Origin: a virus | IMG/VR virus record: IMGVR_UViG_3300035162_002531 | Location: 1-20,123 of that record | Reading direction: 5' to 3' (one strand) | Length of the DNA: 20,123 nucleotides | Shown: positions 950 through 20,123 of the stretch, one piece after another | How the letters are laid out: the number at the start of each line of letters is the position of its first letter | Numbering within the stretch: the first letter of the stretch is position 1 | The notes under the pieces: model-generated | Database searches by the model: none | What the model saw: the letters and a program-made list of their open reading frames with translations, nothing else | What the model was told of the DNA's origin: nothing | Position numbers and translations under genes: made by a program

Positions 950-2234
950 ATGCCAGTTGTGTGATTGCGAGTGTACTACTAGTTCCTTGAAGTGATACTG
1001 TTCCTGAATTTGCTAATCTTGCAACATAAATACTGACTTGATCATTAGCACTCAAACTTAGTGTAGTTGCCATATTTATAGATGACTCATTATGACCAGC
1101 ATTGTTTCTAATATAATTATTAGCAGCGATTTCAGTTTGTTGTGTATCATTAACGGCAAACTTTAATCCAATATTAGCTCGGGTAACACTTGCTGTTATA
1201 TAAAAATTAACTTGAACCAAATATAATCCATTATTAGGAACAACAACATGACTTGATGTTGCAGACCAAGTTCCATTGGAGAATTGTGGTGTTGTATTAA
1301 TCCATGAAACTTCACCATAAGTCGTACTGGAATTTAAGTTTGGTGTACCAGTCCCGACATATTTTGCATAGTTAGAAATACCTCCACTACCGGCATTTGC
1401 ATCAACATATGCTTTAACTGATTGTTGAGTAGGAACTTTAGTTGCTGAATCTGATGTCATGTTATCTTCATCAATAACAAAACTCATACCAGAAGTTGAT
1501 GTGTCATTATTCATAACAGCACCAGCAGCATCAACATTAGTTGCATCAGTTACATCTGCTGATGCTTCAATACCATCCAACTTTGTGCCATCGGTAGCAA
1601 CATCACGACCATCAACTGTTCCAGTTAAAGAAATATCTCCTCTAACATCTAGTTTTGCTGTTGGATTGTCTGTTCCGATACCCACATCACCAGTCGTGCG
1701 ATAAGCATCAGTTCCATCAGTTGTCCAAATAGTAGAAGGATACTGTACAGTACCAATAATTGTAACAAAAAATCCACGATCTACATAAGCATCAGCAGTA
1801 GTACCATTATCACCTTCATATATATTTAATGTAAATCCGGTTGTGGATTTTGTACTATCTACAACGTGAATTTTAATATCATCTCTATTAGATCCCTCTA
1901 TAATTTGACCAGAAATACTATAGTTTGTATTTGATAATGCAGAACTAAAAGTAATTGCAAAAACACCCGTGCTAGTTCTTGAACACGAAATACCATCTGC
2001 ATATACTGTCGATCCTGTACTAGAAAAATGTCCAGATGCAATGATACCCAAACTGGAAACTGTCCCCGAACTTCCACTCGAAGAAACATTAGCAACTTCT
2101 ATGACAGTTGAACCATCACGAAGATATATTTTTTGATCAGCACTATTTACTGCTAGTTCACCATCAGTAAGATCTGATATTGTTGGAACTGATGATCCTA
2201 CACTAGATCTTTTCGGTTTAAAAACATTTGCCAT
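948..2234 (-). CDS. Tail-fibre-like virion protein with C1q-like C-terminal domain
   Basis: This 428-residue, Ser/Thr/Gly-rich protein is a probable tail-fibre or adhesin subunit. The N-terminus (MANVFKPKRS...; about 1-46) resembles the N-terminal module of the fibre gene at 2479-4212, with a DGELAVNSADQKIYLRDG segment typical of phage fibre heads. Residues about 180-285 contain fibre segments VGIGTDNPTAKLDVRG, TDGTKLDGIEASADVTDA and PTQQSVKAYVDANAG. The last 140 residues (about 290-428) alternate strands in a pattern like the C1q/TNF jelly-roll (YLVQVNFYITA, GLKFAVN, DQVSIYVARL), a trimeric fold often used at fibre tips for receptor binding. It is the last gene before a terminator that overlaps its stop codon. 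The structural role is well supported; receptor binding is inferred. Confidence 0.85.
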   Translation of the reverse strand: MANVFKPKRSSVGSSVPTISDLTDGELAVNSADQKIYLRDGSTVIEVANVSSSGSSGTVSSLGIIASGHFSSTGSTVYADGISCSRTSTGVFAITFSSALSNTNYSISGQIIEGSNRDDIKIHVVDSTKSTTGFTLNIYEGDNGTTADAYVDRGFFVTIIGTVQYPSTIWTTDGTDAYRTTGDVGIGTDNPTAKLDVRGDISLTGTVDGRDVATDGTKLDGIEASADVTDATNVDAAGAVMNNDTSTSGMSFVIDEDNMTSDSATKVPTQQSVKAYVDANAGSGGISNYAKYVGTGTPNLNSSTTYGEVSWINTTPQFSNGTWSATSSHVVVPNNGLYLVQVNFYITASVTRANIGLKFAVNDTQQTEIAANNYIRNNAGHNESSINMATTLSLSANDQVSIYVARLANSGTVSLQGTSSTLAITQLA

Positions 2235-2242
2235 AATAATTT

Positions 2243-2476
2243 TTAATTATAATCAGTCACATTATCAATAGAGGATTTTTTAGTTTTTGTTATAGGTTTT
2301 TTAAGTTTATTATTTTCTAATTCTAAGGTTTTCATTTTACCAGTCAGTTCAATAATCGCATTAGAATAGGAATTAATTTTTGCCTCAGCAGTAATTAATT
2401 GAGTCAATAGTTCTCCCGATTTTAATTGATATGCTTTAAGTACATCTTCATAACTAATATTAATTTCACCAGACAT
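2243..2476 (-). CDS. Small coiled-coil protein between two fibre genes
   Basis: A 77-residue protein from the ATG at 2474-2476 (MSGEINISYEDVL...). Residues about 10-60 are heptad-like and highly charged (LTGKMKTLELENNKLKKP), predicting a coiled coil, followed by a basic Lys-rich tail. The upstream fibre gene stops at 2479-2481. An alternative TTG start (2480-2482) overlaps that stop as TTGA and sits six bases after a GGAGG Shine-Dalgarno, a better spacing than the 12 bases to the ATG; it would add two residues. The position between two fibre genes suggests a fibre assembly factor or chaperone, which is inference. No family was recognised. Confidence 0.75.
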   Translation of the reverse strand: MSGEINISYEDVLKAYQLKSGELLTQLITAEAKINSYSNAIIELTGKMKTLELENNKLKKPITKTKKSSIDNVTDYN

Positions 2477-2478
2477 AA

Positions 2479-4212
2479 TCAATAAGATCCTCCATCAAAA
2501 ATTAAATTAACTGCTTCTTGTGAACTATTTATTACCTCATTTCCAGAAGCAATACCACCAAGATAAAGACTATCTGCCGCAACCGGTGCATACGCAGTCG
2601 CAGTGATTTGTGGATCTGCGTTTCCACTATCAGAACTTTCCGATAGTTGGGAAAGCATTGCCATAAACTGATTGTTTAGCCAGACAAGACCAGACTTTTT
2701 AGCACCCGATGAATTATAGTTAAATGCAACTCCTAAGTCCCAAGTGGTTGCAGAAGATGGTGCATCACCATTAACAAGACCTAATTCAAATACCCTGTCT
2801 TCTACTTGTGTCGTTTCTACACTAAATGTAACTGCTGTACCAATAACGTTCAGATTACCATTAACTGTTAAATCATTTGTAATGGTTACATCATCAGGAA
2901 GACCGACAGTAATTGTTCCACTAGATTCAGCAACTTCTACCTCATTTGCAGTTCCACTAAATGTAATTGTTCCACCAAGAGCAGTCGCAGTACTTGTTGA
3001 ACCATCAGTAACTGTAATACTGCTGTTACTAAGTTGAGCATTAGCAATGTTTCCACTAAGACTTGATGTCGGATAGTTAGTGGCATCACTCAAATCAAAT
3101 GCTGGTGTTGCATCTGATTGCCCAAGATCTAAACTTACTCCACCGAATGAGACACTATCATTAAGTAACTTAGAATTAGCAATAGAACCTGCTAACTGAT
3201 CATTAGTAATTCCATCTCCAACAGAAGCGGCAGGAAGAGTTCCAGTTACATCAGTAGCAAGATCAATTGCGTTTCTAGTAATTGTTTGACCAGAAATAGT
3301 AATGTAATCTAATGACCCCGCAAGAGTTACATCTGTTGAATTATCTGTTCCAGCAGCATCAACACCTAAGTTTGTTCTAGCATCAGAAGCACTACTTGCT
3401 CCAGTACCACCATCAGCAACAGGCAAATCTCCAGTTACATCAGCAGCAAGATCAATCTGATTAAGAGTAATTGCTTGACCCACAATACTCAGATAGTCTG
3501 CAGTAGTGGTAACAAGAGTTACATCTGTTGAATTATCTGTTCCAGCAGCATCAACACCTAAGTTTGTTCTAGCATCAGAAGCACTACTTGCTCCAGTACC
3601 ACCATCAGCAATTGCAAGAGTTCCTGTAATAGAAGAAGCACCAAGATCAACAGCAATCTCAGTAGACTCAATTACAAGTCCACCATTTGCTTTCAAGTCT
3701 GCGGAAATAGTTAAGGTGTCTGTAGCACTTACTGCTGCAGTAATGCCATCACCACCAGTAAATGTTATTGTATTTCCACTAGCAATGGTCTCACTAGTAA
3801 CTCCATCAGTAATATCAAATCCACTGAATCCTGATGTTTGATCTACCCAATCAAGATTTCCCGATCCATCAGTTTTTAAAACTTGATCAGCACTTCCGGT
3901 TCCATTTGGTAAAGTAAGTGTATAGTTTGATCCAATTAATGCAGCTGCTGAAACAGAAACAAAATTCGTTCCATTATCAGTATCTTCATATAATTTAATA
4001 CTACCAGCACCAGATGCAGTTGCCTGATTAAGTATTTCTGCAACAGCACTATATGCACTTGCACTAGCTACAACACTTCCTGCACCAGTTCCAGTTCCAC
4101 CATCGTCTCCAACATATAAAACTTTACCACTTTTGTCATAAATGGGTTCACCTTCATAAAAGATAGTTCCTGGAGTAGTAGTACCTCTTTTAAATTGCAG
4201 TCTATTTGCCAT
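2479..4212 (-). CDS. Tail-fibre-like virion protein with ADGGTG repeats
   Basis: A 577-residue fibre protein. The N-terminal module (MANRLQFKRGTTTPGTIFYEGEPIYD..) matches the layout of the neighbouring fibre gene. The body is Gly/Ser/Thr/Asp-rich with two copies of the phage-fibre motif ADGGTGASSASDARTNLGVD (residues about 201-233 and 265-297), encoded by an exact 99-bp repeat. The C-terminal part (about 450-577; VNGNLNVIGTAVTFSVETTQ..., WLNNQFMAML) resembles the conserved end of cyanophage structural proteins. The start is an ATG with GGAT upstream, and a TATAAATA late motif lies at 4238-4245, fitting expression with virion genes. Structural assignment is strong; the exact fibre is unknown. 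Confidence 0.85.
   Translation of the reverse strand: MANRLQFKRGTTTPGTIFYEGEPIYDKSGKVLYVGDDGGTGTGAGSVVASASAYSAVAEILNQATASGAGSIKLYEDTDNGTNFVSVSAAALIGSNYTLTLPNGTGSADQVLKTDGSGNLDWVDQTSGFSGFDITDGVTSETIASGNTITFTGGDGITAAVSATDTLTISADLKANGGLVIESTEIAVDLGASSITGTLAIADGGTGASSASDARTNLGVDAAGTDNSTDVTLVTTTADYLSIVGQAITLNQIDLAADVTGDLPVADGGTGASSASDARTNLGVDAAGTDNSTDVTLAGSLDYITISGQTITRNAIDLATDVTGTLPAASVGDGITNDQLAGSIANSKLLNDSVSFGGVSLDLGQSDATPAFDLSDATNYPTSSLSGNIANAQLSNSSITVTDGSTSTATALGGTITFSGTANEVEVAESSGTITVGLPDDVTITNDLTVNGNLNVIGTAVTFSVETTQVEDRVFELGLVNGDAPSSATTWDLGVAFNYNSSGAKKSGLVWLNNQFMAMLSQLSESSDSGNADPQITATAYAPVAADSLYLGGIASGNEVINSSQEAVNLIFDGGSY
3321..3611 (-). repeat. Exact 99-bp direct repeat inside the fibre gene
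   Basis: Bases 3321-3419 and 3513-3611 are identical over 99 positions by direct reading, with a 192-bp (64-codon) period that keeps frame. Each copy encodes 33 residues around ADGGTGASSASDARTNLGVD. Identity at silent positions points to recent duplication or gene conversion. Confidence 0.9.
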
Positions 4213-7708: not shown

Positions 7709-8500
7709 CTATTTGCCCTCAAATCCAGGAGGTAGACGATTGAAGTATGGATCATATTCAAAAATAGTATTCCAATCTTCAATCTGATTTGCCTGTGTTT
7801 TCCAAAAATTCCAAAGACCTTCATAACTTGACTTATGAAAAACATCAATGTGTTCTTTATGAATTGAAGAACCAAGTTCAAGTTTGTATAAGAATAAAGG
7901 AATGGAAAAAGTGTTTCCAGAATTATAAATCAGATCATCGGCAACTGCTCTTGGTTTGACTCCATTATCAATCTTATACTTATCTCCTCTTACATGAAGG
8001 TCAATTAGTTTTTGTGCATGACGACGTGTAATTAAATAACATGCCGTTGAGAAATCATTCACAAATCTCTTATGCATTTTTAAATGAACTGATGCAGGAT
8101 TAATGACGGCAAGTTGAATTACATCATAGTCATAAGGAACTTTTGCATAAAAATTCTTCCATTCAAAAGGCCAATACGATGCAGTAGAGATATCACAATC
8201 ATCTTCCATCATTAAAGCACATGGAGCATCTGTTTTAAGAAACTCCACCATTGCTCTCAGGTGTGAAGTAGTGCATCCTACTTCACCAGAAGACATACTA
8301 TCAGGGTATCTTCCTTTAAGGATGTCTCCAAGGTCTCTACCGTCCCTACCATCGTATGCAGAGATACGAGTATAATTCTCAATCTCCCAACACTTAAATT
8401 GCTCTTCCATATATTCTTTTCTTTCTGGTTGCTCATCCAGATTTAGATAGTAGATATGAGGAAGACCTTTAAGTTTATAGATCGCCTTATTCTTATCCAT
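7709..8500 (-). CDS. Glycosyltransferase family 25 protein
   Basis: A 263-residue enzyme of the GT25 (LPS-type glycosyltransferase) family. Visible family blocks are HIYYLNLDEQPERK (about 15-28), SGEVGCTTSHLRAM (71-84), the catalytic acidic motif MMEDDCDIS (97-105) and a later ADDLIYN block. GT25 members transfer sugars, often galactose, onto LPS cores or other acceptors. The ATG at 8498-8500 overlaps the upstream stop (TAATG); an in-frame TTG at 8513-8515 is less likely. It is the last gene of the glycan operon, and the next unit starts from its own promoter. Donor and acceptor are not deducible here. Confidence 0.88.
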   Translation of the reverse strand: MDKNKAIYKLKGLPHIYYLNLDEQPERKEYMEEQFKCWEIENYTRISAYDGRDGRDLGDILKGRYPDSMSSGEVGCTTSHLRAMVEFLKTDAPCALMMEDDCDISTASYWPFEWKNFYAKVPYDYDVIQLAVINPASVHLKMHKRFVNDFSTACYLITRRHAQKLIDLHVRGDKYKIDNGVKPRAVADDLIYNSGNTFSIPLFLYKLELGSSIHKEHIDVFHKSSYEGLWNFWKTQANQIEDWNTIFEYDPYFNRLPPGFEGK

Positions 8501-9357
8501 TAAATTACTTTCCAATTCTCACAATATAAATCTTTTGTATCTTTGTCAGCATAGTCAGAACCAAACCACATACTTGGTGCAACTACTTTACCTCTACTAT
8601 TCTGCAACCAGGCACCCCACCAAGAAAGAGAAGAGTTAGCAATGATAGCACCAGAACACAGACTCATCAGGCAAAGGTCAACATATGGAGTGTAAGAACC
8701 ATCTGAATACTTTTCTTCAGGTTCAGAGATAAGAAATCTATCACCAGAGAAAAACTCTTGTTCCTTCACCCATTCTGGAGAGTCTGAACATACAATAACA
8801 GGTTGGTCTTCGGGAAAATGCTTCAGTGCTTTCTCATAATACTCTACTGGTTGCGGAGGATGTTGAGAGGAGCATTGTGTATATGACCACTTAAATCCTC
8901 TTGAGTCAACTAAATTTGGGTCACCTCTCCTCACATGGAGAAACAGTGGAATCTCATCAAGAGACTCAATCATTCCCTTACATGGATTGAGTATTTCATC
9001 ATGGAAGGTATAATCATCACGAATTTGATTCTCGATATGTTTAAAGTACTTTTCAGTTTGAAAAAATCCATGCATAGAAACATCATTAGGACATAGAGAA
9101 AATAATTCATCATCAAAATGAAATTGCTTTTCCACAACTACCGGAGCATATCCTCTATCAAGAATATATTGATTTGTAGATTTTACACTACCCATAACAA
9201 AACAATTTCCAAGACTGTAGTTATCAACTCTTGGGGTGGAGAAGGGGGGAATACACCAATCATATCCTTTTGCTGCAGAGATTCCTCTCAGAGCAGAATA
9301 CTGAAACATCTGGTTTCCCAATCTCCCCAAATTACCAAGATCATTAAACGATAACAT
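8500..9357 (-). CDS. GT11-family (alpha-1,2-fucosyltransferase-like) glycosyltransferase, copy A
   Basis: A 285-residue GT11 enzyme. The three family signatures are intact: GRLGNQMFQY (11-20), HVRRGD (141-146) and NSSLSWWGAWL (241-251). Length matches bacterial FutC/WbsJ-type enzymes, which use GDP-L-fucose. No membrane span, so it probably acts at the cytoplasmic face. It overlaps the upstream gene by 14 bases and the downstream one by TAATG. It is a paralogue of the gene at 10156-11004, with shared stretches such as QTEKYFKHIE. With a GDP-mannose 3,5-epimerase in the operon, GDP-L-galactose is an alternative donor (inference). Confidence 0.92.
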   Translation of the reverse strand: MLSFNDLGNLGRLGNQMFQYSALRGISAAKGYDWCIPPFSTPRVDNYSLGNCFVMGSVKSTNQYILDRGYAPVVVEKQFHFDDELFSLCPNDVSMHGFFQTEKYFKHIENQIRDDYTFHDEILNPCKGMIESLDEIPLFLHVRRGDPNLVDSRGFKWSYTQCSSQHPPQPVEYYEKALKHFPEDQPVIVCSDSPEWVKEQEFFSGDRFLISEPEEKYSDGSYTPYVDLCLMSLCSGAIIANSSLSWWGAWLQNSRGKVVAPSMWFGSDYADKDTKDLYCENWKVI

Positions 9358-10159
9358 CTTTCATCCTCTCCTTTAAGTAGTCCTGTTGATTCATATAATT
9401 TATTATATCACTTTTATTTTGTTTCCTCAACCACTGCCATAAATTATGATTATCCATAAATTTTGGATTGTTGTAATGTGAATTGTGCGTTCTACTATGC
9501 TCCAAATGATATACCCAATCACTAATTCTCCCAACACGAAAACCTAATATATTATATCTAAAGTAAAACTCACAATCTTCTGCTCCCCAGGAAAGAAAAT
9601 TCTCGTTCCATAGACCACCTTTTAAGACTGCATCTTTACTATAAAATTGTGTCCATCCAATTGTAGATGATTGTGAATTACATCTCGGATGAATCACATT
9701 CATATCGAATCCACTTACTAAAAACTCCCGAAAGACTTCTATAGGATAATCAACCTGATGTTGCCATATGCCACATCCATAAGGGTAGATAACATCAAGT
9801 TGATTACTTTTAATTAATTTATAAGAATTCTGATGACTTGATATTGGAAGTATGACATCTACGTCATGACTACAAATTACACTCGTTTCAGAAAGCATAA
9901 TCAAATCATTCAATATTCTTGTTTTATGAAATAAAGTATCTACACTTTTCTCAAAAACATATTTTAAATTATCAGTATTACAAAATTTACTAATTTCAGG
10001 AAAGGCTTTAAACTTGAATCTTTCTCTATCACTAACTTCTTTAACAATCACCTTTGCTTCCGGAAAGTTCCTAAGAAGATAAGAAACTGAAGTAATAATA
10101 TTTTTAAGTCGATCTTCCGACTCAATTCGTGCAGGAATAATATAAGTTAAATCATTCAT
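9344..10159 (-). CDS. GT-A fold glycosyltransferase (GT2/GT7-like)
   Basis: A 271-residue enzyme. The N-terminus LTYIIPARIESEDRL is a GT-A start as in GT2 and GT7 proteins. A metal-binding DVD lies at 99-101 (SHDVDVILP), and WGAEDCEF at 191-198 is the acceptor and catalytic block of beta-1,4-galactosyltransferase-like C-terminal domains; His218 and His221 (HLEH) follow at the usual distance. It therefore probably transfers galactose, N-acetylgalactosamine or a similar sugar from a UDP donor using Mn2+. The ATG overlaps the upstream stop by ATGA. Specificity is unknown. Confidence 0.82.
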   Translation of the reverse strand: MNDLTYIIPARIESEDRLKNIITSVSYLLRNFPEAKVIVKEVSDRERFKFKAFPEISKFCNTDNLKYVFEKSVDTLFHKTRILNDLIMLSETSVICSHDVDVILPISSHQNSYKLIKSNQLDVIYPYGCGIWQHQVDYPIEVFREFLVSGFDMNVIHPRCNSQSSTIGWTQFYSKDAVLKGGLWNENFLSWGAEDCEFYFRYNILGFRVGRISDWVYHLEHSRTHNSHYNNPKFMDNHNLWQWLRKQNKSDIINYMNQQDYLKERMKDVIV

Positions 10160-11004
10160 AATTTATTCCAACCTTTTGGAATAAGATCATTCATATTAAA
10201 ATGAGAATATGCAGGACCAAACCAATTCTTAGGAGCGACAACTACACTATCTTTATTATTCATCAACCATGCTCCCCACCAACTAAAAGAACTATTTGCA
10301 ATAATAGCATCAGTACAAAGGGTCATCAAACATAAATCAGAAAAATGAGTTCTAACACCATTATCAAATTCTTCATAAGATTCAGACAACATAAATCTAT
10401 CATCTTCAAAATATTCTTGCTCTTGGCACCATTCAATATAATCAGAAAAAACTAAGATGGGAATATCTTTGGGAAGTTTACTTACTGCTTTTTTATAATA
10501 CTCAATTGTGCATGGTGGATGATATTGTTGTAAATTTGTATAAGCATCTCTTAATTTTGGATGACCTCTTCTCACATGGAGAAAAGCTACCCTTTCACTA
10601 TCAATAGAATCAATAAACTTTTGACATGGTTCAAGTATACTATCATGGAAAGTAAAATCTTCTCTTATACTATCTTCAATATGCTTGAAATATTTTTCAG
10701 TCTGCAAACACCCATTCAGATTTATATGATCTGGACAATTTTCAAATAAATGTTTGTCGAATCCAAATCCAGATTCAGAAATGTTTTGTGCTCTGATATG
10801 TCCTTGATTTTTTACATTGATTAATTTAAAAGTTTCCCATAGCATATAATTACAATCATTACCATCAGGAGCAATACTAGAAGATCCTTGTGGTGGAATT
10901 ATCCATTCATATCCATGTTTTGCCGCAATTCCTCTTAGAGTAGCATATTGGAACATCTGATTTCCAATTCTTCCTGCTCTACCCAAATCATTAAAACCAA
11001 TCAT
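10156..11004 (-). CDS. GT11-family glycosyltransferase, copy B, with altered HxRRGD motif
   Basis: A 282-residue GT11 paralogue of the enzyme at 8500-9357. GRIGNQMFQY (11-20) and NSSFSWWGAWL (237-247) are intact, but the donor-binding motif reads HVRRGH (143-148): the acidic residue is His148, encoded by CAT. The rest of the protein is full length and undisrupted, so this is substitution rather than decay. It could change donor or acceptor preference or lower activity. It overlaps the upstream methyltransferase and downstream GT-A gene by ATGA at both ends. Family assignment is secure; activity is open. Confidence 0.9.
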   Translation of the reverse strand: MIGFNDLGRAGRIGNQMFQYATLRGIAAKHGYEWIIPPQGSSSIAPDGNDCNYMLWETFKLINVKNQGHIRAQNISESGFGFDKHLFENCPDHINLNGCLQTEKYFKHIEDSIREDFTFHDSILEPCQKFIDSIDSERVAFLHVRRGHPKLRDAYTNLQQYHPPCTIEYYKKAVSKLPKDIPILVFSDYIEWCQEQEYFEDDRFMLSESYEEFDNGVRTHFSDLCLMTLCTDAIIANSSFSWWGAWLMNNKDSVVVAPKNWFGPAYSHFNMNDLIPKGWNKL

Positions 11005-13944: not shown

Positions 13945-14637
13945 TTAAACCTCTTCCACGATCCATACAGTTTGAAGATGAGGATCACCTTGACCACCTT
14001 CATAAATTTTTGTCATTTTTAGTCCGTATTCATCTGATACTTCTTTATGAGCTCTAGACTCACCATGTTCAAAGTTCTTGTGAGGAGTTCCACCCCAATC
14101 ATCATAACCAACTAAAGTACCCTTAGTAATTAGGTCATTTTTAGCAAGATAATCAAAAGCATATTTTGTTGGGGAGTAGATATCTAAATCAAAGTCAACA
14201 TAAAATGCTTTAGTAAAAGTGGCAACAGTTTGCATAGTTTCTTCTACAAGTCCAGGAACAACCAAAACATCTGTAGAATATCCTTTATTAATGTAGATTT
14301 CTTGGACCTGCGATTGAATAGCAGTAGCAACTTCTTGTGGACTATTTAAATTCAATCTTTTAACTGAATTAAATGCATCAGGCATTTTTTCAGGATCCCA
14401 AGCATCTTGAAAGATTGGTTCTGCATTTTCTTTGGGCATTCCAGTGAAAACATCAAATCCATAAAATGATTTGATGAGAAATTCCAAAGTACAGAACATA
14501 TTTGATAGTTCTCTCATAGAATCTCCATCAAGAACTCCGAATTGGTACATACTCATCCCAGAAAGTTCTTCTTCTGAAAAAGTATTATACTTTTTAAACA
14601 GATAAGGAAGAACTCCACCACGCCAACTTCTATACAT
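13945..14637 (-). CDS. TylF/MycF-like O-methyltransferase
   Basis: A 230-residue protein with the hallmarks of the macrocin O-methyltransferase (TylF) family: FYGFDVFTGMP (58-68), the metal-binding acidic block FYVDFDLDIYSPTKYAF (145-161) and GYDDWGG (177-183), plus GESRAHKEV near the C-terminus. Family members methylate sugar hydroxyls using SAM and Mg2+. The usual motif I is less clear than in the other two methyltransferases of the operon. It follows the GDP-mannose epimerase after three bases and precedes the next methyltransferase by two bases. Confidence 0.84.
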   Translation of the reverse strand: MYRSWRGGVLPYLFKKYNTFSEEELSGMSMYQFGVLDGDSMRELSNMFCTLEFLIKSFYGFDVFTGMPKENAEPIFQDAWDPEKMPDAFNSVKRLNLNSPQEVATAIQSQVQEIYINKGYSTDVLVVPGLVEETMQTVATFTKAFYVDFDLDIYSPTKYAFDYLAKNDLITKGTLVGYDDWGGTPHKNFEHGESRAHKEVSDEYGLKMTKIYEGGQGDPHLQTVWIVEEV

Positions 14638-14640
14638 TTT

Positions 14641-15687
14641 CTATTCCCCACCAATTTGTGCAGAAATCCATGCATAAGTTTTTCGAATACCCTCTTCAAG
14701 GGTCTGAGAGTAATCCCAACCCAACTCTCTACGAATCACATCGTTGTTAGAATTACGTCCACGAACTCCAAGAGGTCCATCAATATGAATTTTATTCACA
14801 ATTTTATCAGAAACGTTAGCAGCAGTCTCTACCAGTTGATTAATAGTAACCATCTCTTCAGATCCAATGTTCACAGGACCCATAAAGTCACTATCCATCA
14901 ATCGTCTAGTTGCTTCAATGCATTCATCAATGAACAGGAAGGAACGAGTTTGTAACCCATCTCCCCACACCTCGATAGATCCACCTGACTCCGGGAGGTA
15001 AGCAACCTTGCGACAGATTGCAGCTGGTGCTTTCTCTCTGCCACCGTCCCAGGTTCCTTCAGGTCCGAAGATATTATGATACCTAGCAACCCGAACAGGG
15101 ATGCCATGGTTACGATTGTAAGCAAAGTAGAGACGCTCAGAGAAGAGTTTCTCCCATCCATACTCAGAGTCTGGGTTTGCAGGGTATGCTGATTCTTCAC
15201 GGCAATCAGGATTATCAGGGTCTAGTTGATTATGCTCTGGATACATACATGCCGATCCAGAGTAAAAGATTTTAGTTTTATTTTGCTCTGCAATTTCATT
15301 CAGTTTACGTTGTTCCTCAAGAACATTCAGATTGATGGACACAGAGTTATGCATAATGTCTGCATCGTTCTCACCAGTGAATACAAATCCTGCTCCACCC
15401 ATATCAGCAGCAAACTGATAAATCTCATCAAAAGGTTCGGCAAACTTATCTACAATATCTTTGTAGAAGTTTCCAAGGTATCCAGTAAAACGAACACATC
15501 TAGAAACAAAACGAGTGTCTCTTAAGTCACCAACAATAAACTCATTCGCATGAGATGCACAATATTCAGGATGCTTAAGATCAACTCCCCGAACCCAGTA
15601 TCCTTCTTGTCGAAGTCTCTTAACCATGTGACTTCCAATGAATCCACCTGCACCAAGCACAAGTGCAGTCTTCTTATAATCAGACAT
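14641..15687 (-). CDS. gme: GDP-mannose 3,5-epimerase homologue
   Basis: A 348-residue extended SDR closely resembling plant GDP-D-mannose 3,5-epimerase, which makes GDP-L-galactose and GDP-L-gulose. The NAD motif is GAGGFIG (12-18). Catalytic residues seen in the plant enzyme are all present: the acid/base Cys147 in SGSACMYPE, Tyr176 and Lys180 in YGWEK, Lys219 in GGREKAPAA, and the Arg-containing GVRGRNS (307-313). TRSFLFIDEC (247-256) and the ELGWDYSQTLEEGI ending match too. First gene of the glycan operon, behind the promoter at 15712-15740; AGGAG lies 12 bases upstream of the ATG. It would feed L-galactose-type donors to the fucosyltransferase-family enzymes downstream. The product in the phage is inferred from family chemistry. 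Confidence 0.93.
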   Translation of the reverse strand: MSDYKKTALVLGAGGFIGSHMVKRLRQEGYWVRGVDLKHPEYCASHANEFIVGDLRDTRFVSRCVRFTGYLGNFYKDIVDKFAEPFDEIYQFAADMGGAGFVFTGENDADIMHNSVSINLNVLEEQRKLNEIAEQNKTKIFYSGSACMYPEHNQLDPDNPDCREESAYPANPDSEYGWEKLFSERLYFAYNRNHGIPVRVARYHNIFGPEGTWDGGREKAPAAICRKVAYLPESGGSIEVWGDGLQTRSFLFIDECIEATRRLMDSDFMGPVNIGSEEMVTINQLVETAANVSDKIVNKIHIDGPLGVRGRNSNNDVIRRELGWDYSQTLEEGIRKTYAWISAQIGGE

Positions 15688-15711
15688 AAAATAATTAAAC
15701 TCCTAGTATAT

Positions 15712-15740
15712 ATTATACTAAAAAAGGAGAGTTTATGCAA
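15712..15740 (-). promoter_or_regulatory. sigma70-type promoter of the glycan operon, overlapping a terminator
   Basis: A perfect TATAAT (15712-15717) is preceded at exactly 17 bases by TTGCAT (15735-15740; a weak 3/6 -35). The -35 straddles the loop of the terminator at 15720-15746 and the T tract is part of the spacer. The -10 lies in an inverted repeat AGTATA-ATA-TATACT (15704-15718). Confidence 0.6.
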
Positions 15741-15746
15741 CTCTCC
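15720..15746 (-). terminator. Intrinsic terminator before the glycan operon
   Basis: Perfect 8-bp stem GGAGAGTT/AACTCTCC with loop GCATA and six T residues. It contains the stop codon of the 32-residue ORF and would end the transcript from the promoter at 16151-16179. Confidence 0.85.
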
Positions 15747-15831
15747 TCATAAGGTCTTGCCATGCACGCCACTTGCTCTTTGTCCAGAAGCAAGAAACTG
15801 GACGGTAGTAACCCACCCGCACCAACGGCAT
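15733..15831 (-). CDS. 32-residue basic peptide
   Basis: A small ORF beginning MPLVRVGYYRPVSCFWTKSK and ending MRRVA, strongly basic and aromatic. An in-frame TGA lies just upstream, so the ATG is the only ordinary start. The start codon lies in a 7-bp hairpin ACGGCAT/ATGCCGT, and the stop falls in the terminator loop, as for the fibre gene at 948, which fits a genuine terminal gene. A second frame over the same bases also encodes an ORF (MSLRHLSN...), so the call is tentative. Function unknown. Confidence 0.45.
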   Translation of the reverse strand: MPLVRVGYYRPVSCFWTKSKWRAWQDLMRRVA

Positions 15832-15906
15832 TTGAGAGATGCCGTAAACTCATAAGAGGGTCATAATGACTCCACCAGGGTTTTTAAAGTCTTTCCATGA
15901 CTAAAA

Positions 15907-16128
15907 TCAATCAACCTCAACAGGAATTTTTAGATCAGAATACAAACAGTCCATCATGATTTCATAATCATCAAGTGGATCACCAGAAAAAATTACTCCA
16001 TTAGATTCATAATATTTACGAACCTTCTTAAATAATTTTGGACTTTTTACATCTAAGAAAATTTCACCTTTTGCAGCATTACGAAGAGTTTCTAGATCTT
16101 TACTCTTGAATTTTTCAGTCAGTGCCAT
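15907..16128 (-). CDS. Hypothetical 73-residue protein
   Basis: A charged, probably soluble protein (MALTEKFKSKDLETLRNAAK... ending LKIPVEVD). It looks like a compact alpha/beta domain: a helix, strand EIFLDV, a basic helix KLFKKVRKYYES, a short strand GVIFSG and an acidic helix. No catalytic motif is visible. It has its own strong promoter at 16151-16179 with a short leader, which suggests early, host-polymerase expression. The 32-residue ORF and the terminator follow. Function unrecognised. Confidence 0.85.
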   Translation of the reverse strand: MALTEKFKSKDLETLRNAAKGEIFLDVKSPKLFKKVRKYYESNGVIFSGDPLDDYEIMMDCLYSDLKIPVEVD

Positions 16129-16150
16129 TGTCCGTTTTGATTACCTGTAT

Positions 16151-16179
16151 ATTATAAGGTGTTGTGATTATGTAGTCAA
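16151..16179 (-). promoter_or_regulatory. sigma70-type promoter of the 73-residue gene
   Basis: TTGACT (16174-16179; 5/6), exactly 17 bases, perfect TATAAT (16151-16156), 23 bases upstream of the ATG at 16128. Predicted start near 16144. Confidence 0.8.
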
Positions 16180-16189
16180 GTAGTTGTTA

Positions 16190-16362
16190 AGGCAGGTGCG
16201 GTATCCGGTTATAACCAATATCATAAGTCAATGCACATTCTTATGATAAACACGATTACATTGCCTCCCATGCTCCATTTACTTCTCTGACCTTAACTGT
16301 AGGTTCCTATCGCCGCTACTCCTGAACCTACTGAAGGGAAGTACCGCAGTTGATATCTCAAC
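16190..16362 (-). ncRNA. Candidate structured noncoding RNA
   Basis: About 220 bases between the 51-residue gene and the next promoter hold no ORF longer than about 18 codons, yet directly follow a perfect-consensus promoter at 16369-16397. The predicted minus-strand transcript contains hairpin GTTGA-GATA-TCAAC (16349-16362), an 8-bp stem GTAGGTTC/GAACCTAC (16324-16331 with 16299-16306) with a 17-base loop, a 9-bp stem TATCATAAG/CTTATGATA (16240-16248 with 16219-16227), and the palindrome GGTTATAACC. TGCGGTA (16342-16348) can pair with TACCGCA (16197-16203), closing a multibranch fold. No terminator was seen, so it could instead be the leader of the 73-residue gene. No known RNA family was recognised. 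Confidence 0.4.
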
Positions 16363-16368
16363 TTACAT

Positions 16369-16397
16369 ATTATACTACCTCTAGTTCCCTCTGTCAA
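16369..16397 (-). promoter_or_regulatory. Perfect-consensus sigma70 promoter before the structured region
   Basis: TTGACA (16392-16397), exactly 17 bases, TATAAT (16369-16374); both boxes perfect. The -35 lies in the last codons of the 51-residue gene. The first ATG of the transcript is followed at once by a stop, so no protein gene is close. Confidence 0.8.
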
Positions 16398-16536
16398 ATG
16401 GTGCCCAATGCTGCCAGTTGTATTTGTGGACTGCCCACATTCCTATGATAGGAACAAAGACAAGACACCATGCTAAGAAACCGCAACCCCATGGATTGTT
16501 TAATACTGTTCCGCAAAACCTAGCAAACTGTAACAT
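16381..16536 (-). CDS. 51-residue membrane protein
   Basis: A complete ORF with a TAATG overlap to the preceding 27-residue ORF. It begins MLQFARFCGTVLNNPWGCG, followed by one transmembrane helix FLAWCLVFVPIIGMWAV (20-36) and a Trp/His-rich tail KYNWQHWAPFDRGN. Four Trp residues and three Cys in 51 residues is unusual. The N-terminal part is short, and topology is not clear. Its 3' end carries the -35 box of the downstream promoter. No family recognised; a role at the host inner or thylakoid membrane is inferred. Confidence 0.75.
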   Translation of the reverse strand: MLQFARFCGTVLNNPWGCGFLAWCLVFVPIIGMWAVHKYNWQHWAPFDRGN

Positions 16537-16619
16537 TACTCTTGTAAAATTGAAAGGATAAAAAGAAATAAACCTAATGAAGAATAAAATACTATGAAGG
16601 CAATGACCATGTTTTCCAT
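16536..16619 (-). CDS. 27-residue single-span membrane peptide
   Basis: A short ORF, MENMVIAFIVFYSSLGLFLF and seven more residues, almost entirely one hydrophobic helix. It overlaps the 101-residue gene by 28 bases and the next gene by TAATG; a start at Met4 would reduce the first overlap to 19 bases. Coupling at both ends supports it. Function unknown. Confidence 0.5.
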   Translation of the reverse strand: MENMVIAFIVFYSSLGLFLFILSILQE

Positions 16620-16897
16620 AGTTCTAAAAAATAACGATCAACTTGATATAAGTCTTTAGCAGGTGGTATTTCATCAATATTTTCAGACCACTCTCTACAA
16701 AGTGCTCTCATCTCACATATAATATTATTGGGTCTAAACATTCTACCAAATGAGGACATGGCAAACGCATATCTCATCTTAATGCGCTGTTCCATTTCCG
16801 TCATATTTGTCACTTTCATAGTAGACATTTTCACCTTTTCTGTGCCCGAAATAAATGGTGGCACATAGAAAGGGTATTGTTCCCCAGAGTAAGACAT
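16592..16897 (-). CDS. Hypothetical 101-residue protein
   Basis: MSYSGEQYPFYVPPFISGTE leads into a helical, Met- and Arg-rich domain (about 28-85: MTEMEQRIKMRYAFAMSSF, NIICEMRALCREW) and an aromatic end YFLELWKTWSLPS. No signal peptide or membrane span. It starts nine bases after the stop of the truncated gnd gene. No recognised family or motif. Confidence 0.75.
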   Translation of the reverse strand: MSYSGEQYPFYVPPFISGTEKVKMSTMKVTNMTEMEQRIKMRYAFAMSSFGRMFRPNNIICEMRALCREWSENIDEIPPAKDLYQVDRYFLELWKTWSLPS

Positions 16898-16906
16898 CTG
16901 CTAAAG

Positions 16907-17377
16907 TCATATGACATTTCCTGGTGATAAAGATTGAAAAATTTTAGAACAAGTATCAATAGCAACATGTGCTCCATATACCCCAGAGAAAATATATAAG
17001 ATACCTAACTTAGAACAGTACAGTTCCAGTTCCTGACATTTTCTTATATCTGTGGTACTGTAATCAATAATAATATCACCCTCCTCAAGTAAAGGTAGCA
17101 ACTCATCAAGTGTGTCTTCTGTCTTTTGCTCTGGAAGTGTAATCTGAAAGATGCCAGGAACTTTTCCGGCACTAGTGTATCTAAGACCATCAGATTTAAC
17201 TGCCTGAACAAGATACTCTAATGAAGTTACACATCCACTAATATATCCTGCTTCATATTGTCCACAGGCATTCTCATAACTACTGCTACTGTAACCCCAA
17301 ACTTCAATTCCCTTTTCAATCATACGACGGGACATACCTTCACCAGTACGACCCAATCCAATCATTCCAACTTTCAT
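16907..17377 (-). CDS. gnd: Truncated 6-phosphogluconate dehydrogenase, NAD(P)-binding domain only
   Basis: A 156-residue protein that begins MKVGMIGLGRTGEGMSRRMI, the dinucleotide-binding start of 6PGDH/beta-hydroxyacid dehydrogenases (Gly7, Gly9, Gly12). QITLPEQ at about 78-84 and DIIIDYSTTDIRKCQELELYC (about 100-120) are the later Rossmann strands and the Asn/Ser-Thr substrate loop, here changed to DYSTT instead of DGGNS. It stops at SPGNVI, before the catalytic-Lys helix and the large helical C-terminal domain needed for dimerisation and activity. Full-length enzymes are two to three times longer, and no remainder is found downstream. Cyanophage gnd boosts NADPH through the pentose phosphate pathway; this version is probably inactive in that reaction or repurposed. 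Confidence 0.8.
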   Translation of the reverse strand: MKVGMIGLGRTGEGMSRRMIEKGIEVWGYSSSSYENACGQYEAGYISGCVTSLEYLVQAVKSDGLRYTSAGKVPGIFQITLPEQKTEDTLDELLPLLEEGDIIIDYSTTDIRKCQELELYCSKLGILYIFSGVYGAHVAIDTCSKIFQSLSPGNVI

Positions 17378-17386
17378 AAAATTCTC

Positions 17387-17602
17387 CTACAATTTAATTT
17401 GTAACCATGGTAATAGTGGTGGAATAACACCAATCAATCTGAGAAGGCCCTCAGCAAATAAAGATAAGACAACCCACCCCACACACATGCTGATAATACC
17501 TGCGTTTCTATTGTGTCTCCGAATAGCATCGTCGATCATCTCCTTACACTCTTTTTGAGTGACATATTGTTCTGACTTTATTTCATCCATCCGATGGTTC
17601 AT
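17387..17602 (-). CDS. Small membrane protein with charged N-terminal helix
   Basis: A 71-residue protein: a charged helical N-terminus (MNHRMDEIKSEQYVTQKECK) followed by about 30 hydrophobic residues (35-68; GIISMCVGWVVLSLFAEGLL, IGVIPPLLPWL), long enough for one span with a Pro break or two short spans. It overlaps the upstream gene by 20 bases; starting at Met5 (17588-17590) would leave an eight-base overlap. Function unknown. Confidence 0.75.
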   Translation of the reverse strand: MNHRMDEIKSEQYVTQKECKEMIDDAIRRHNRNAGIISMCVGWVVLSLFAEGLLRLIGVIPPLLPWLQIKL

Positions 17603-17741
17603 TTTTCATCATTTTATCAATAGGATCTGGTGCTCCACTAACAATTACACATGCTCTCTGATAAAAGAAATTGTCGGTATTTCCAGATGACTCAAAAGTC
17701 TCTTTGACTTTCACCCAGTTATTGTAGGTGTGCTCGTCCAT
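17583..17741 (-). CDS. Hypothetical 52-residue protein
   Basis: Starts MDEHTYNNWVKVKETFESSG and ends KNEPSDG; a small soluble, mostly helical protein with an aromatic NFFYQRACVIVSGAPDP block. It is first in a tight run of small genes (52, 71, truncated gnd, 101, 27 and 51 residues) behind the promoter at 17770-17797. No recognised function. Confidence 0.75.
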   Translation of the reverse strand: MDEHTYNNWVKVKETFESSGNTDNFFYQRACVIVSGAPDPIDKMMKNEPSDG

Positions 17742-17769
17742 GGTTTTTAGATTGAAATACATATTAGCT

Positions 17770-17797
17770 ATAATAGTTACTAATTCGTATTTGTCAA
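17770..17797 (-). promoter_or_regulatory. sigma70-type promoter of the small-gene run
   Basis: Perfect TTGACA (17792-17797), 16 bases, TATTAT (17770-17775; 5/6). It lies in the only gap between the 85-residue and 52-residue genes, about 29 bases before the ATG at 17741. Confidence 0.65.
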
Positions 17798-17817
17798 CTT
17801 ATTTTGATTTCCTAATA

Positions 17818-18075
17818 TTATCTAACTTCAAAATCCATTTTACGAACTTTACGTTGCTTTCTTTGTTCCTGCCACAGAATATCTTCTTGTGAAAGAACTG
17901 GATTTTTATTTTTAGATTGATAAGAGTTTAACATAACAATCTTCGAAAAATCAACTGCAGAAATCTTATCACCACGAATGGTTGCCATATTCGGACAACC
18001 ACAACAAACTGTCTTACTTGGGTGCCCTTCCAATTCCTTTCCACAGGAACGACACCTAATCTTTATATTTTCCAT
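17818..18075 (-). CDS. Zinc-ribbon-like small protein
   Basis: An 85-residue protein. The N-terminal third carries cysteines Cys8-x-x-Cys11 and Cys24, Cys25, Cys27 (IRCRSCGKELEG, KTVCCGCPN), spaced like a one-knuckle zinc ribbon. A short middle region (AVDFSKIVMLNSYQ) and a basic C-terminal helix (WQEQRKQRKVRKMDF) follow, which could contact nucleic acid. A late promoter motif lies at 18109-18116. Zinc binding is inferred from cysteine spacing; function unknown. Confidence 0.78.
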   Translation of the reverse strand: MENIKIRCRSCGKELEGHPSKTVCCGCPNMATIRGDKISAVDFSKIVMLNSYQSKNKNPVLSQEDILWQEQRKQRKVRKMDFEVR

Positions 18076-18108
18076 TGTATAATTCTTTATACGTCTTCAG
18101 TTTTCAGT

Positions 18109-18116
18109 TATTTATA
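18109..18116 (-). promoter_or_regulatory. T4-type late promoter motif before the zinc-ribbon-like gene
   Basis: Perfect TATAAATA on the minus strand, 34 bases upstream of the ATG at 18075 and overlapping the stop of the 58-residue gene. The intergenic position supports it. Confidence 0.5.
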
Positions 18117-18288
18117 ATTTTTCTTCTAACATATACTCTACTGTATTGGCAACATCATTCATTGCATCTCGCAATTCCTCACGTTGTCCGGCATGTTGTT
18201 CTACTTTAGTAACACCATTTTTAAATTCTTCACAAAGAGTCCATCTCCATTGACTCATACTCTTAGAGTACCAAAGATTAATTTTCAT
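18112..18288 (-). CDS. Hypothetical 58-residue protein
   Basis: Starts MKINLWYSKSMSQWRWTLCE and ends EYMLEEKL. The first half looks like a small beta hairpin (LWYSKS, WRWTLCEEF), the second a helix rich in Glu, Asp and Asn. The ATG overlaps the end of the upstream gene (ATGAAAATTAA). No recognised family. Confidence 0.75.
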   Translation of the reverse strand: MKINLWYSKSMSQWRWTLCEEFKNGVTKVEQHAGQREELRDAMNDVANTVEYMLEEKL

Positions 18289-18454
18289 TTGTAGAAAAGT
18301 CGTCTACGCGACTATTTAGTTCTCCCATCTTACGAATCAATTGCGTGTGTTCATTTTCTATTTCCTCAATACGACACTGTAGTATCTCAATCATATCATA
18401 GATGTTATCGCAGTCTGCAATTTTTTGTTCCGACTTTTTAATTTTCTTTTTCAT
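18278..18454 (-). CDS. 58-residue coiled-coil protein
   Basis: Starts MKKKIKKSEQKIADCDNIYD and continues with heptad-spaced Ile/Leu (MIEILQCRIEEIENEHTQLI), predicting a short coiled coil, ending STNEN. The ATG is immediately after the T tract of the pstS terminator, with no Shine-Dalgarno visible, so its transcription depends on leak-through or an unseen promoter. Function unknown. Confidence 0.72.
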   Translation of the reverse strand: MKKKIKKSEQKIADCDNIYDMIEILQCRIEEIENEHTQLIRKMGELNSRVDDFSTNEN

Positions 18455-18478
18455 AAAAAAGGGGGACTATTGTCCCCC
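18455..18478 (-). terminator. Intrinsic terminator of pstS
   Basis: Perfect 7-bp GC-rich stem GGGGGAC/GTCCCCC, tetraloop AATA, then six T residues, 12 bases after the pstS stop. Confidence 0.9.
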
Positions 18479-18490
18479 ACTATACTTATA

Positions 18491-19447
18491 TTATTCGATA
18501 CTGTCAACAGCAGCAAGTGCTTTCTGTCTCAGATCCTCAGGCAGTGGAACATAACCAAGACCATCAGACATTGCTTGTGCTTTCTCACTCAACATATAAC
18601 GAAGAGTTTCCTTTACACCTTCCTTAGACTCAGGGTATGCTAAGACCCAAGTTAGAGAGACAATAGGATATGCATTGGCACCAGCAGGGTTAGCGTCAGC
18701 ACCACGAAGTTGATCGTCCAGGACGATCTGTGATAGACCTGCTGCAGATGTTTCAGCATTTGCTTTGACATAGTTACCTGCTTTGTTTTGTAGTGATACT
18801 TGTTGAAACTTATCACCATTCACATAACCATAGTTTAGATAACCAATGGCACCAGGAACTTGCTTCACTTGTGCGGCAACACCAGAGTTACCTTTACCAC
18901 CAACACCAGCAGGCCACTTTACTGCCTTACCTGTTCCGACATTCTCTTTCCACTCAGGAGAGAATGCTGATAGTGAGTTAGTGAAACCTTTTGTGGTGCC
19001 ACTACCATCAGAACGGAATACAGGAACAATAGTTTTACTCTCACATCCAAAAGTAGACCAGTTAGTAATCTTACCAAGATATACATCAGCAAGTTGTGTC
19101 TGTGTCATCTTAACATCACAACCAGGCATGTTGTAAGTAGGAACAATAGCACCACCAGTCATAGGAATGTGAAGCATCGGAAGCTTCTGCTTCTCATCAC
19201 TTACAGCACCATCACTGGCACCAAAATCAACTGTGCCAGCCATATACTGACGGACACCAGAACCACTACCAACTGCTTGATAGTTTACTTGGTTTCCAGT
19301 TTCACTTGCCATGGTTTGAAACCATGCTTGATATAACGGAGCAGGGAATGTAGCACCTGCTCCATCTAATCTAAATGTGGTTGATGTACCACCACATGCC
19401 ACCATCAGTGGAGCAATAGAGATTGTTGCGAGTGCTTTGAGTTTCAT
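18491..19447 (-). CDS. pstS: Phosphate ABC transporter substrate-binding protein
   Basis: A 318-residue PstS that captures phosphate in the periplasm for the host PstCAB transporter. The signal peptide ends in a lipobox LMVAC with Cys18, so it is a predicted lipoprotein. The phosphate-binding loops are GAGATFPAPLYQAW (29-42), GSGSGVRQ, FGASDGAVS and FRSDGSGTTKGFT, all intact, and the length is normal. It is monocistronic, between two terminators (19472-19496 and 18455-18478). Phage pstS copies are known to be raised during phosphate-starved infection through host PhoB; only a weak Pho-box-like stretch is visible upstream. An auxiliary metabolic gene typical of marine cyanophages. Confidence 0.97.
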   Translation of the reverse strand: MKLKALATISIAPLMVACGGTSTTFRLDGAGATFPAPLYQAWFQTMASETGNQVNYQAVGSGSGVRQYMAGTVDFGASDGAVSDEKQKLPMLHIPMTGGAIVPTYNMPGCDVKMTQTQLADVYLGKITNWSTFGCESKTIVPVFRSDGSGTTKGFTNSLSAFSPEWKENVGTGKAVKWPAGVGGKGNSGVAAQVKQVPGAIGYLNYGYVNGDKFQQVSLQNKAGNYVKANAETSAAGLSQIVLDDQLRGADANPAGANAYPIVSLTWVLAYPESKEGVKETLRYMLSEKAQAMSDGLGYVPLPEDLRQKALAAVDSIE

Positions 19448-19471
19448 AAATTTACGATATTAGTTAACCAT

Positions 19472-19496
19472 AAAAAAAGGACTCTCGTCAGAGTCC
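19472..19496 (-). terminator. Intrinsic terminator between the outer-membrane-like gene and pstS
   Basis: Perfect 7-bp stem GGACTCT/AGAGTCC, loop GACG and seven T residues. It separates the upstream late unit from pstS. Confidence 0.88.
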
Positions 19497-19499
19497 CCG

Positions 19500-19513
19500 A
19501 ACATCTAGATGTT
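19500..19513. promoter_or_regulatory. 14-bp perfect palindrome upstream of pstS
   Basis: AACATCTAGATGTT is fully self-complementary and lies just before the terminator, about 55 bases upstream of the pstS ATG. It could be an operator-type protein site or extend the terminator structure. No matching regulator motif was recognised. Confidence 0.3.
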
Positions 19514-19529
19514 TATTTTATATGGAAGA

Positions 19530-19904
19530 TCAGAAGGAATACTTCAGACCCAACTTGGTTCCGTAACCACGGTCGATGTCAGAATCACCTGAACCGACGA
19601 AGGAGACTTCACCATAAGCACCCAGTGCGTCGGTCAGTGCAAGACCGAGACCTGCCTTACCAGAAGGAACAGTGTCACTTTCAGCACCATCAGGGGAGAC
19701 TACAGTAGCACCACCTTGGACGTAGTAGGATGCAGACTCACCCAATTCACCTTCATATCCTACGTGAAGGTCTGTGGCAGTTCCACCATAATCAGATCCT
19801 GTCCAACCGGAGTTAGCTTCGACGTTGACGTAGGGTCCGGCTAGGGCAGCAGCAGGGGCAAGAGCAATTGCAGCAGCAGCTGCAGCGATAGTCGTTTTGA
19901 ACAT
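19530..19904 (-). CDS. Small outer-membrane beta-barrel-like secreted protein
   Basis: A 124-residue protein with an Ala-rich signal peptide (1-22, cleavage after ALA). The mature part is Gly/Ser/Tyr-rich with alternating strands (YVNVEANSGW, TDLHVGYEGEL, SYYVQGGATVV, AGLGLALTDALGAYGEVSF) and ends TKLGLKYSF, the C-terminal Phe typical of outer-membrane barrels. At this size about eight strands are possible. The start has GAGGA six bases upstream, and a late motif lies at 20002-20009. It follows the tRNA gene and precedes pstS, so it might alter host envelope permeability late in infection; that is inference. Confidence 0.75.
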   Translation of the reverse strand: MFKTTIAAAAAAIALAPAAALAGPYVNVEANSGWTGSDYGGTATDLHVGYEGELGESASYYVQGGATVVSPDGAESDTVPSGKAGLGLALTDALGAYGEVSFVGSGDSDIDRGYGTKLGLKYSF

Positions 19905-20001
19905 TTGTTTTCCTCGTTTTTTTACTTGCGGAATGGTTACCCGCAGATGTTAAGAACCTCGACTGGTTCTGTTGTAATTTGTTACTTACGTAACTTCAGA
20001 G

Positions 20002-20009
20002 TATTTATA
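20002..20009 (-). promoter_or_regulatory. T4-type late promoter motif of the outer-membrane-like gene
   Basis: Perfect TATAAATA, embedded in the inverted repeat GAGTA-TAAA-TACTC (20000-20013), about 98 bases upstream of the ATG. The leader holds two short hairpins (AGAACC/GGTTCT and TGCGG/CCGCA). Confidence 0.65.
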
Positions 20010-20044
20010 CTCATCAATTTTTCGGGATATTCGGATAACCCGAA

Positions 20045-20115
20045 AGCGGAATACCAGAATCGAACTGGTGACGAAAGGTTGGAAACCTTTAGTTTTGCCT
20101 CTAAACTAATTCCGC
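20045..20115 (-). tRNA. tRNA-Gly (anticodon UCC)
   Basis: A 71-base cloverleaf: acceptor stem GCGGAAT/ATTCCGC, D stem GTTT/AAAC, anticodon stem AAAGG/CCTTT with loop TTTCCAA (anticodon TCC), T arm ACCAG-TTCGATT-CTGGT and discriminator U, as expected for bacterial tRNA-Gly. No intron; the 3' CCA is not encoded. It reads GGA and GGG codons; GGA is common in the Gly-rich fibre and GT genes here. Confidence 0.95.
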
Positions 20116-20123
20116 AGAGTGGG

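Follow-up and report, generated by a model that had tools for sequence, protein, structure and literature searches.

The DNA analysed here, referred to throughout as the window, is a 20,123-base viral contig from IMG/VR (IMGVR_UViG_3300035162_002531), whose nearest relative is the cyanophage S-SKS1 (96% identity across 70% of 14000-20123). All feature coordinates given for it lie on the minus strand. A sequence-only reading had pointed, without naming a strand, to a consensus promoter followed by a gene-free stretch, and both are present on this strand. The promoter, of the sigma-70 type (TTGACA-17-TATAAT; 16397-16369), matches consensus at 12 of 12 positions, with its -35 element at 16397-16392 and its -10 element at 16374-16369; the predicted +1, a G, falls at 16362. 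No credible ORF was found between 16369 and the next gene in the window's clade, which encodes 73 amino acids (MALTEKFK...; 16128-15907), lies outside the RNA described below and is driven by a second sigma-70-type promoter (TTGACT-17-TATAAT; 16179-16151) that is conserved in relatives. The remaining features noted in that reading are also there: an 8-bp stem, GTAGGTTC/GAACCTAC (16331-16324 with 16306-16299), a 9-bp stem, TATCATAAG/CTTATGATA (16248-16240 with 16227-16219), a palindrome, GGTTATAACC (16216-16207), and the complementary pair TGCGGTA/TACCGCA (16348-16342 and 16203-16197). Folding energy gave no signal against shuffled sequence (z = -0.70 for the whole region, -0.89 for its 3' module and -0.95 for its core). 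Since energy cannot tell the region from its shuffles, the case for an RNA is made here by comparison instead.

Other structured RNAs and genes on the same strand of the window were recorded alongside. A PhotoRC-II RNA (RF01717) lies at 803-708, and a wcaG RNA (RF01761, 84 bits) at 15853-15724 has an intrinsic terminator immediately behind it and then an epimerase gene, an arrangement that would fit attenuation of transcription by wcaG. A pair of related ORFs sharing NDLGxxGRxGNQMFQYxxLRGI motifs (8500-11004), within a phage sugar/glycosyltransferase cluster, appear by eye to be alpha-1,2-fucosyltransferase-like.

By blastn, the first ∼50 transcribed bases downstream of the promoter recur in otherwise differing leaders, mostly outside annotated genes, in S-SKS1, SynMITS9220M01, S-SCSM2R, ACG-2014f, P-SSM2, P-SSM5 and single-cell viruses; further named carriers are S-SM2, Bellamy, S-B05, S-B43, RB11-B and S-H68. 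In P-SSM2 (AY939844) the element occupies 144034-144103. A core-pattern search returned at least 120 viral stretches, and a second subfamily, found by letting position 49 of the core vary, added at least 120 more; with duplicates removed, viral contigs hold at least 205 distinct elements. Exactly one strong copy was present in 17 of 17 records carrying the element, and 11 other cyanophage genomes examined had none, so the family is patchy. A weak match in S-IOM18, antisense within a gene, was dropped. When 84,980 genomes of bacteria and archaea were scanned for exact matches, for the GCGGC subfamily only, there were four unrelated hits, about the chance expectation, in which only 23-25 nt of the model matched. 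At the gathering threshold no Rfam 15 family matched the element in the window, P-SSM2, S-SCSM2R, 18 loci and 13 further loci; at E values up to 10 the window, P-SSM2 and S-SCSM2R gave chance-level hits only, and the Rfam models of known self-cleaving ribozymes matched none of these three. No published description was found among open-licence papers. Judged on these searches, the element is an RNA family of T4-like cyanophages that is not in Rfam 15 and is new by every test run.

Homologues and covariation define a conserved core of about 64 nt (16362-16299) consisting of a 5'-terminal hairpin, P1, and an H-type pseudoknot formed by P2 and P3. P1 pairs GTTGA with TCAAC (16362-16358 and 16353-16349). 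It is followed by the 5' strand of P2, CGGTACTTC (16346-16338), and the 5' strand of P3, GTAGGTTC (16331-16324); the 3' strand of P2, GGAGTAGCG (16322-16314), lies within the P3 loop, and a loop that is nearly invariant in both alignments described below, L3 (GCGATAG; 16313-16307), separates it from the 3' strand of P3, GAACCTAC (16306-16299), so that the 8-bp stem already noted is P3. When A16363 is numbered 1 (position p then corresponding to window base 16364-p), P3 joins positions 33-40 to 58-65 (8 pairs) and P2 joins 21-26 to 42-47, extended by 18-50 and 19-49 (8-9 pairs), with G.G, A.G or C-G at 20/48.

All four strands of P2 and P3 are supported by covariation. In an alignment of 72 sequences (A1), 99.9% of P2/P3 cells were paired and double changes numbered 169 against 53 (sd 5) in shuffles, all slid controls being far lower. 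In a second alignment, of 110 sequences (A2), the covariation score was 0.543 against 0.203 (sd 0.008) and double-change cells numbered 333 against 108 in shuffles; unpaired cells were nearly all at 20/48. In these counts each cell stands for a sequence rather than a separate event, and the shuffles take no account of ancestry; the slid controls and the many pair types, six for the pair 23-45, argue against a purely inherited pattern. The 19-49 pair emerged independently from the second subfamily, where it covaries (G-C in 119, U-A in 76 and U-G in 11 of 208 listed elements; of the two exceptions, L130 arose from parsing and L279 is a coding sequence unrelated to the family), and because position 19 changed together with 49, P2 reaches 18-50 and 19-49. 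The UUC/GAA top of P3 was set by the search pattern, and a scan for a different base at position 39 found no variants. An excess of G-U over A-C cells (101 versus 3) fixes the sense strand. The window scored 81.9 bits (E 7.5e-17) against a covariance model of the family, R1, among whose own building sequences it is counted, and it displays the features of the new family: P1 from +1, a pseudoknot of P2 and P3, an invariant L3 and covariation. A likeness of CTGCGG...CCTT to the 16S rRNA 3' end was considered and dropped, because some of these bases covary within the pseudoknot.

On this comparative evidence the region is almost certainly a real conserved structured RNA. Its first description as a phage noncoding RNA holds up well, given the covariation, the G-U pairs of the sense strand and the lack of coding character, and the comparison proposed with it, of homologues from other cyanophages, yielded stem-preserving covariation. 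The early expression proposed for it would be in keeping with the host-type sigma-70 promoter, the one feature that points to it. Less survives of the proposed fold. A multibranch structure closed by TGCGGTA/TACCGCA is unsupported, because TGCGG is kept in phages without the partner and C18 and G19 pair within the pseudoknot; moreover, what was taken for one fold of ∼200 nt is two units, the widespread ∼64-nt core and a clade-specific module of 112 nt.

The position of P1 relative to the transcription start was analysed by picking the best upstream promoter without regard to pairing and comparing the five bases 6 nt past its -10 element with the five before TGC. Pairing began at exactly the expected +1 in 148 of 182 listed elements, other offsets each accounting for at most 10 of the 182, and in 94 of 104 in a smaller set. 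The first base of P1 was G in all 148, and double-change cells in P1 numbered 109 against 26 (sd 5) in shuffles. The P1 loop spans 3-70 nt in relatives and 101-209 nt in eight loci; in a wider search of P1 loops, a control with the 3' strand swapped gave 3-8% hits. These loops occur in any length and any frame, with stops in all frames, and in some phages the 5' strand of P1 lies inside the upstream coding sequence, overlapping the gene end. An intrinsic terminator overlaps the promoter in 20 of 117 cases; at these 20 loci (L029, L060, L094 and L124 among them) the -35 element, TTGACG, sits in the terminator's loop and the T-run forms the promoter spacer.

The core accepts additional RNA both within P1 and behind P3. 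In 17 contigs of P-SSM2-like phages (L032, L053, L161, L166, L167, L181, L185, L195, L203, L205, L209, L244, L247, L248, L251, L261 and L277) a further conserved domain of 100-210 nt is nested in P1. All 24 pairs proposed for it are 100% paired in 13 sequences, with 27 double changes against 8 (sd 2); the structure was drawn from the same sequences, which biases slid controls in its favour, and it is the double changes that serve as evidence. No Rfam family matched the 13 loci tried, including those with the large P1 domain. Other modules move, lying sometimes within P1 and sometimes behind the core.

In the window the space behind the core is filled by the 112-nt module (16297-16186), which has GTTAAGG/CCTTAAC ends and an internal stem and is found in seven contigs (the window and L139-L144). 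It is absent from S-SKS1, has no relative among named phages and is not a tRNA by ARAGORN. Its 9-10-bp stem keeps pairing, by eye, through G-U changes and one double change in L141. At the syntenic locus the slot between the core and the next promoter is empty in S-SKS1, L020 and L040 (in L020 the -35 element of the next promoter abuts P3), holds a tRNA-Pro and a hairpin in L028, L102, L106, L125 and L024 and a hairpin in L030, and holds the 112-nt module in the window and L139-L144, with a further insert ending ...CTTCTCCCAACAAC in L141. Promoter and core are retained while the content of the slot varies, and the module probably represents an additional RNA unit inserted at this position.

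Elsewhere the element is followed by a restricted set of tRNAs or by a varied set of genes. A tRNA begins within 20 nt of its 3' end in 104 of 198 testable listed cases, separated from it by 2-5 nt, and these are 85 tRNA-Arg(UCU) and 19 tRNA-Pro(UGG), with no other. Where no tRNA is present, the downstream ORFs are of unrelated kinds (by eye, PurM-like, HAD-type and tryptophan-halogenase-like proteins and small membrane proteins) and start mostly 16-29 nt past P3. The element always heads a co-directional transcript. Of the marks of a self-terminated small RNA it has its own promoter, but no intrinsic terminator lies close downstream, the nearest being 259 nt away, and terminator density downstream is not clearly enriched (0.21 versus 0.16 per kb). 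Several loci have further features in this tRNA neighbourhood. The tRNA-Arg behind the element in L044 (∼2020-2550, plus strand) seems interrupted by an HNH-like ORF (MNSCLKCGSPTKTKFCSRSC...). In ACG-2014f (L005, 2557-2915) a manA RNA lies between two tRNAs with 1-nt gaps, directly behind the element and its tRNA, an odd placement if manA is, as supposed, a leader that regulates a protein gene in cis. An abiF RNA (RF03085) occupies 2590-2554 (minus strand) of L031, in a cyanophage tRNA cluster beside the element; abiF has been reported in cyanophage S-CREM1 (PMC9964418).

As an explanation for the element we tentatively favour a stand-alone gene for a trans-acting small RNA, processed from a longer transcript, a reading we rate as plausible yet somewhat short of probable. 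The RNA would be made from its own promoter as the leading part of the longer transcript and be freed by processing, with RNase P cutting at the 5' end of the tRNA in those phages that have one there and another nuclease acting in the rest. With its 5' end locked in P1 and its 3' end in P3 it would be stable. In infected cells its invariant loops would recognise a single conserved partner, either a protein or an RNA and of either host or phage origin. That the RNA itself is the product is favoured by the single copy, the interchangeable neighbours, the promoter kept beside an abutting next promoter and the sealed ends taken together. Where a strong promoter of its own drives the next gene, the specific product of the first promoter would be the core RNA; the 2-5-nt gap to the tRNA fits a unit within a processed RNA array, and a further covarying domain in P1 is expected if the RNA is the product. 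Against a trans-acting RNA, the lack of a near terminator makes processing a requirement, the element, like one acting in cis, is in every case the first part of a co-directional transcript, and the exclusive association with Arg(UCU) and Pro(UGG) tRNAs might reflect a cis role instead. It is possible, if doubtful, that the element is a phage-only hub for modular RNA, a start-locked pseudoknot core with domains and tRNAs inserted in its 5' hairpin and 3' flank, which would act in trans, by a mechanism not known from any RNA described so far, on some conserved machinery of the host or the phage.

The strongest rival to a trans-acting RNA is control in cis resembling that of the put sites of phage HK022, in which the nascent RNA would bind polymerase and make it resist pausing and termination through the downstream tRNA cluster or operon; we consider this somewhat unlikely. 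The putL RNA is ∼70 nt long, lies just past its promoter and pairs from its third nucleotide (PMC9378689), and the element is comparable in length and position, being structured from +1 at the promoter-proximal 5' end of a transcript that has no early terminator. Untranslated tRNA arrays would be plausible clients for such control. RNase P cleavage would do this reading no harm, since the put effect on polymerase persists without tethering (PMC9378689). However, HK022 carries two put sites (PMC9378689), whereas a genome carries the element only once despite its many operons; its topology is an H-type pseudoknot and not the two-stem-loop put fold, it tolerates large extra RNA domains, downstream terminators are not clearly enriched, and in S-SKS1 and L020 the operon has its own promoter directly behind the element. 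A blunt 5' hairpin and pseudoknot could also protect the transcript in infection against attack by RppH, RNase E or RNase J, which we regard as very unlikely. Stems at the 5' end are known to stabilise mRNA, and the first transcribed base is paired in 148 of the 182 listed elements. Also in its favour, host cells infected by cyanophage are reported to express more RNase E under the action of a phage MarR-type factor (PMC9692554). Yet P1 alone would be enough for protection, leaving the conserved pseudoknot and L3 unexplained, RNase P would remove the shield 2-5 nt downstream in about half of cases, and the element fronts only one transcript per genome.

The riboswitch-like leader that the sequence-only reading had offered as its alternative, a metabolite sensor controlling the gene behind the element, is quite unlikely. 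In its favour, the pseudoknot is compact, has invariant bases that stay unpaired and sits where a leader would, and cyanophage leader RNAs, wcaG and manA, are precedents as candidate regulators (PMC2864571). Nevertheless, the genes behind the element are unrelated to each other, no terminator or ribosome-binding site is there to be controlled where a tRNA follows, the 2-5 nt before that tRNA leave no space for an expression platform, and the element is single-copy, with no copy turning up in host genomes within the sensitivity of the scan. Overlap with upstream gene ends in some phages could suggest that what is conserved is a site in the DNA or a short stretch of coding sequence, but the compensatory changes in P1, P2 and P3, the strand-specific G-U pairs and the P1 loops of any length and frame, with stops in all frames, make this scarcely credible. 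The single copy, the promoter lock and the tRNA adjacency give clear predictions separating the trans-acting RNA that we favour from a polymerase-modifying leader, and these are directly testable, as the carriers include cultured phages (P-SSM2, S-SM2, Bellamy and S-SKS1).

T4-like cyanophages are among the ocean's most abundant viruses, and their regulation has mostly been described through proteins. The element adds to them a new structured-RNA family comparable to wcaG or manA, with comparative support far above what folding energy provides. Like wcaG (RF01761), manA (RF01745) and PhotoRC-II (RF01717) it is a structured RNA of these phages, and wcaG and manA occur near it, but their Rfam models do not match it; an identification with manA, guessed from its location near purM in P-SSM2, was wrong, manA sitting elsewhere. 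It resembles HK022 putL and putR in being a promoter-proximal phage RNA of ∼70 nt structured from its first nucleotides, and differs from them in that put has two stem-loops with a triplex and two copies per genome, in a lambdoid phage. The ToxI antitoxin and abiF RNA (RF03085) are likewise small and noncoding, and ToxI is a protein-binding pseudoknot; ToxI, however, forms tandem repeats beside a toxin gene, whereas the element is single and without a constant neighbour gene, and no ToxI or abiF model matches it. GOLLD and ROOL RNAs, which are found near tRNAs, are large, modular and phage-linked, and unlike them the element has a core of only ∼64 nt and no Rfam match, but the expanded P1 domain of P-SSM2-like phages gives it a comparable modular build.
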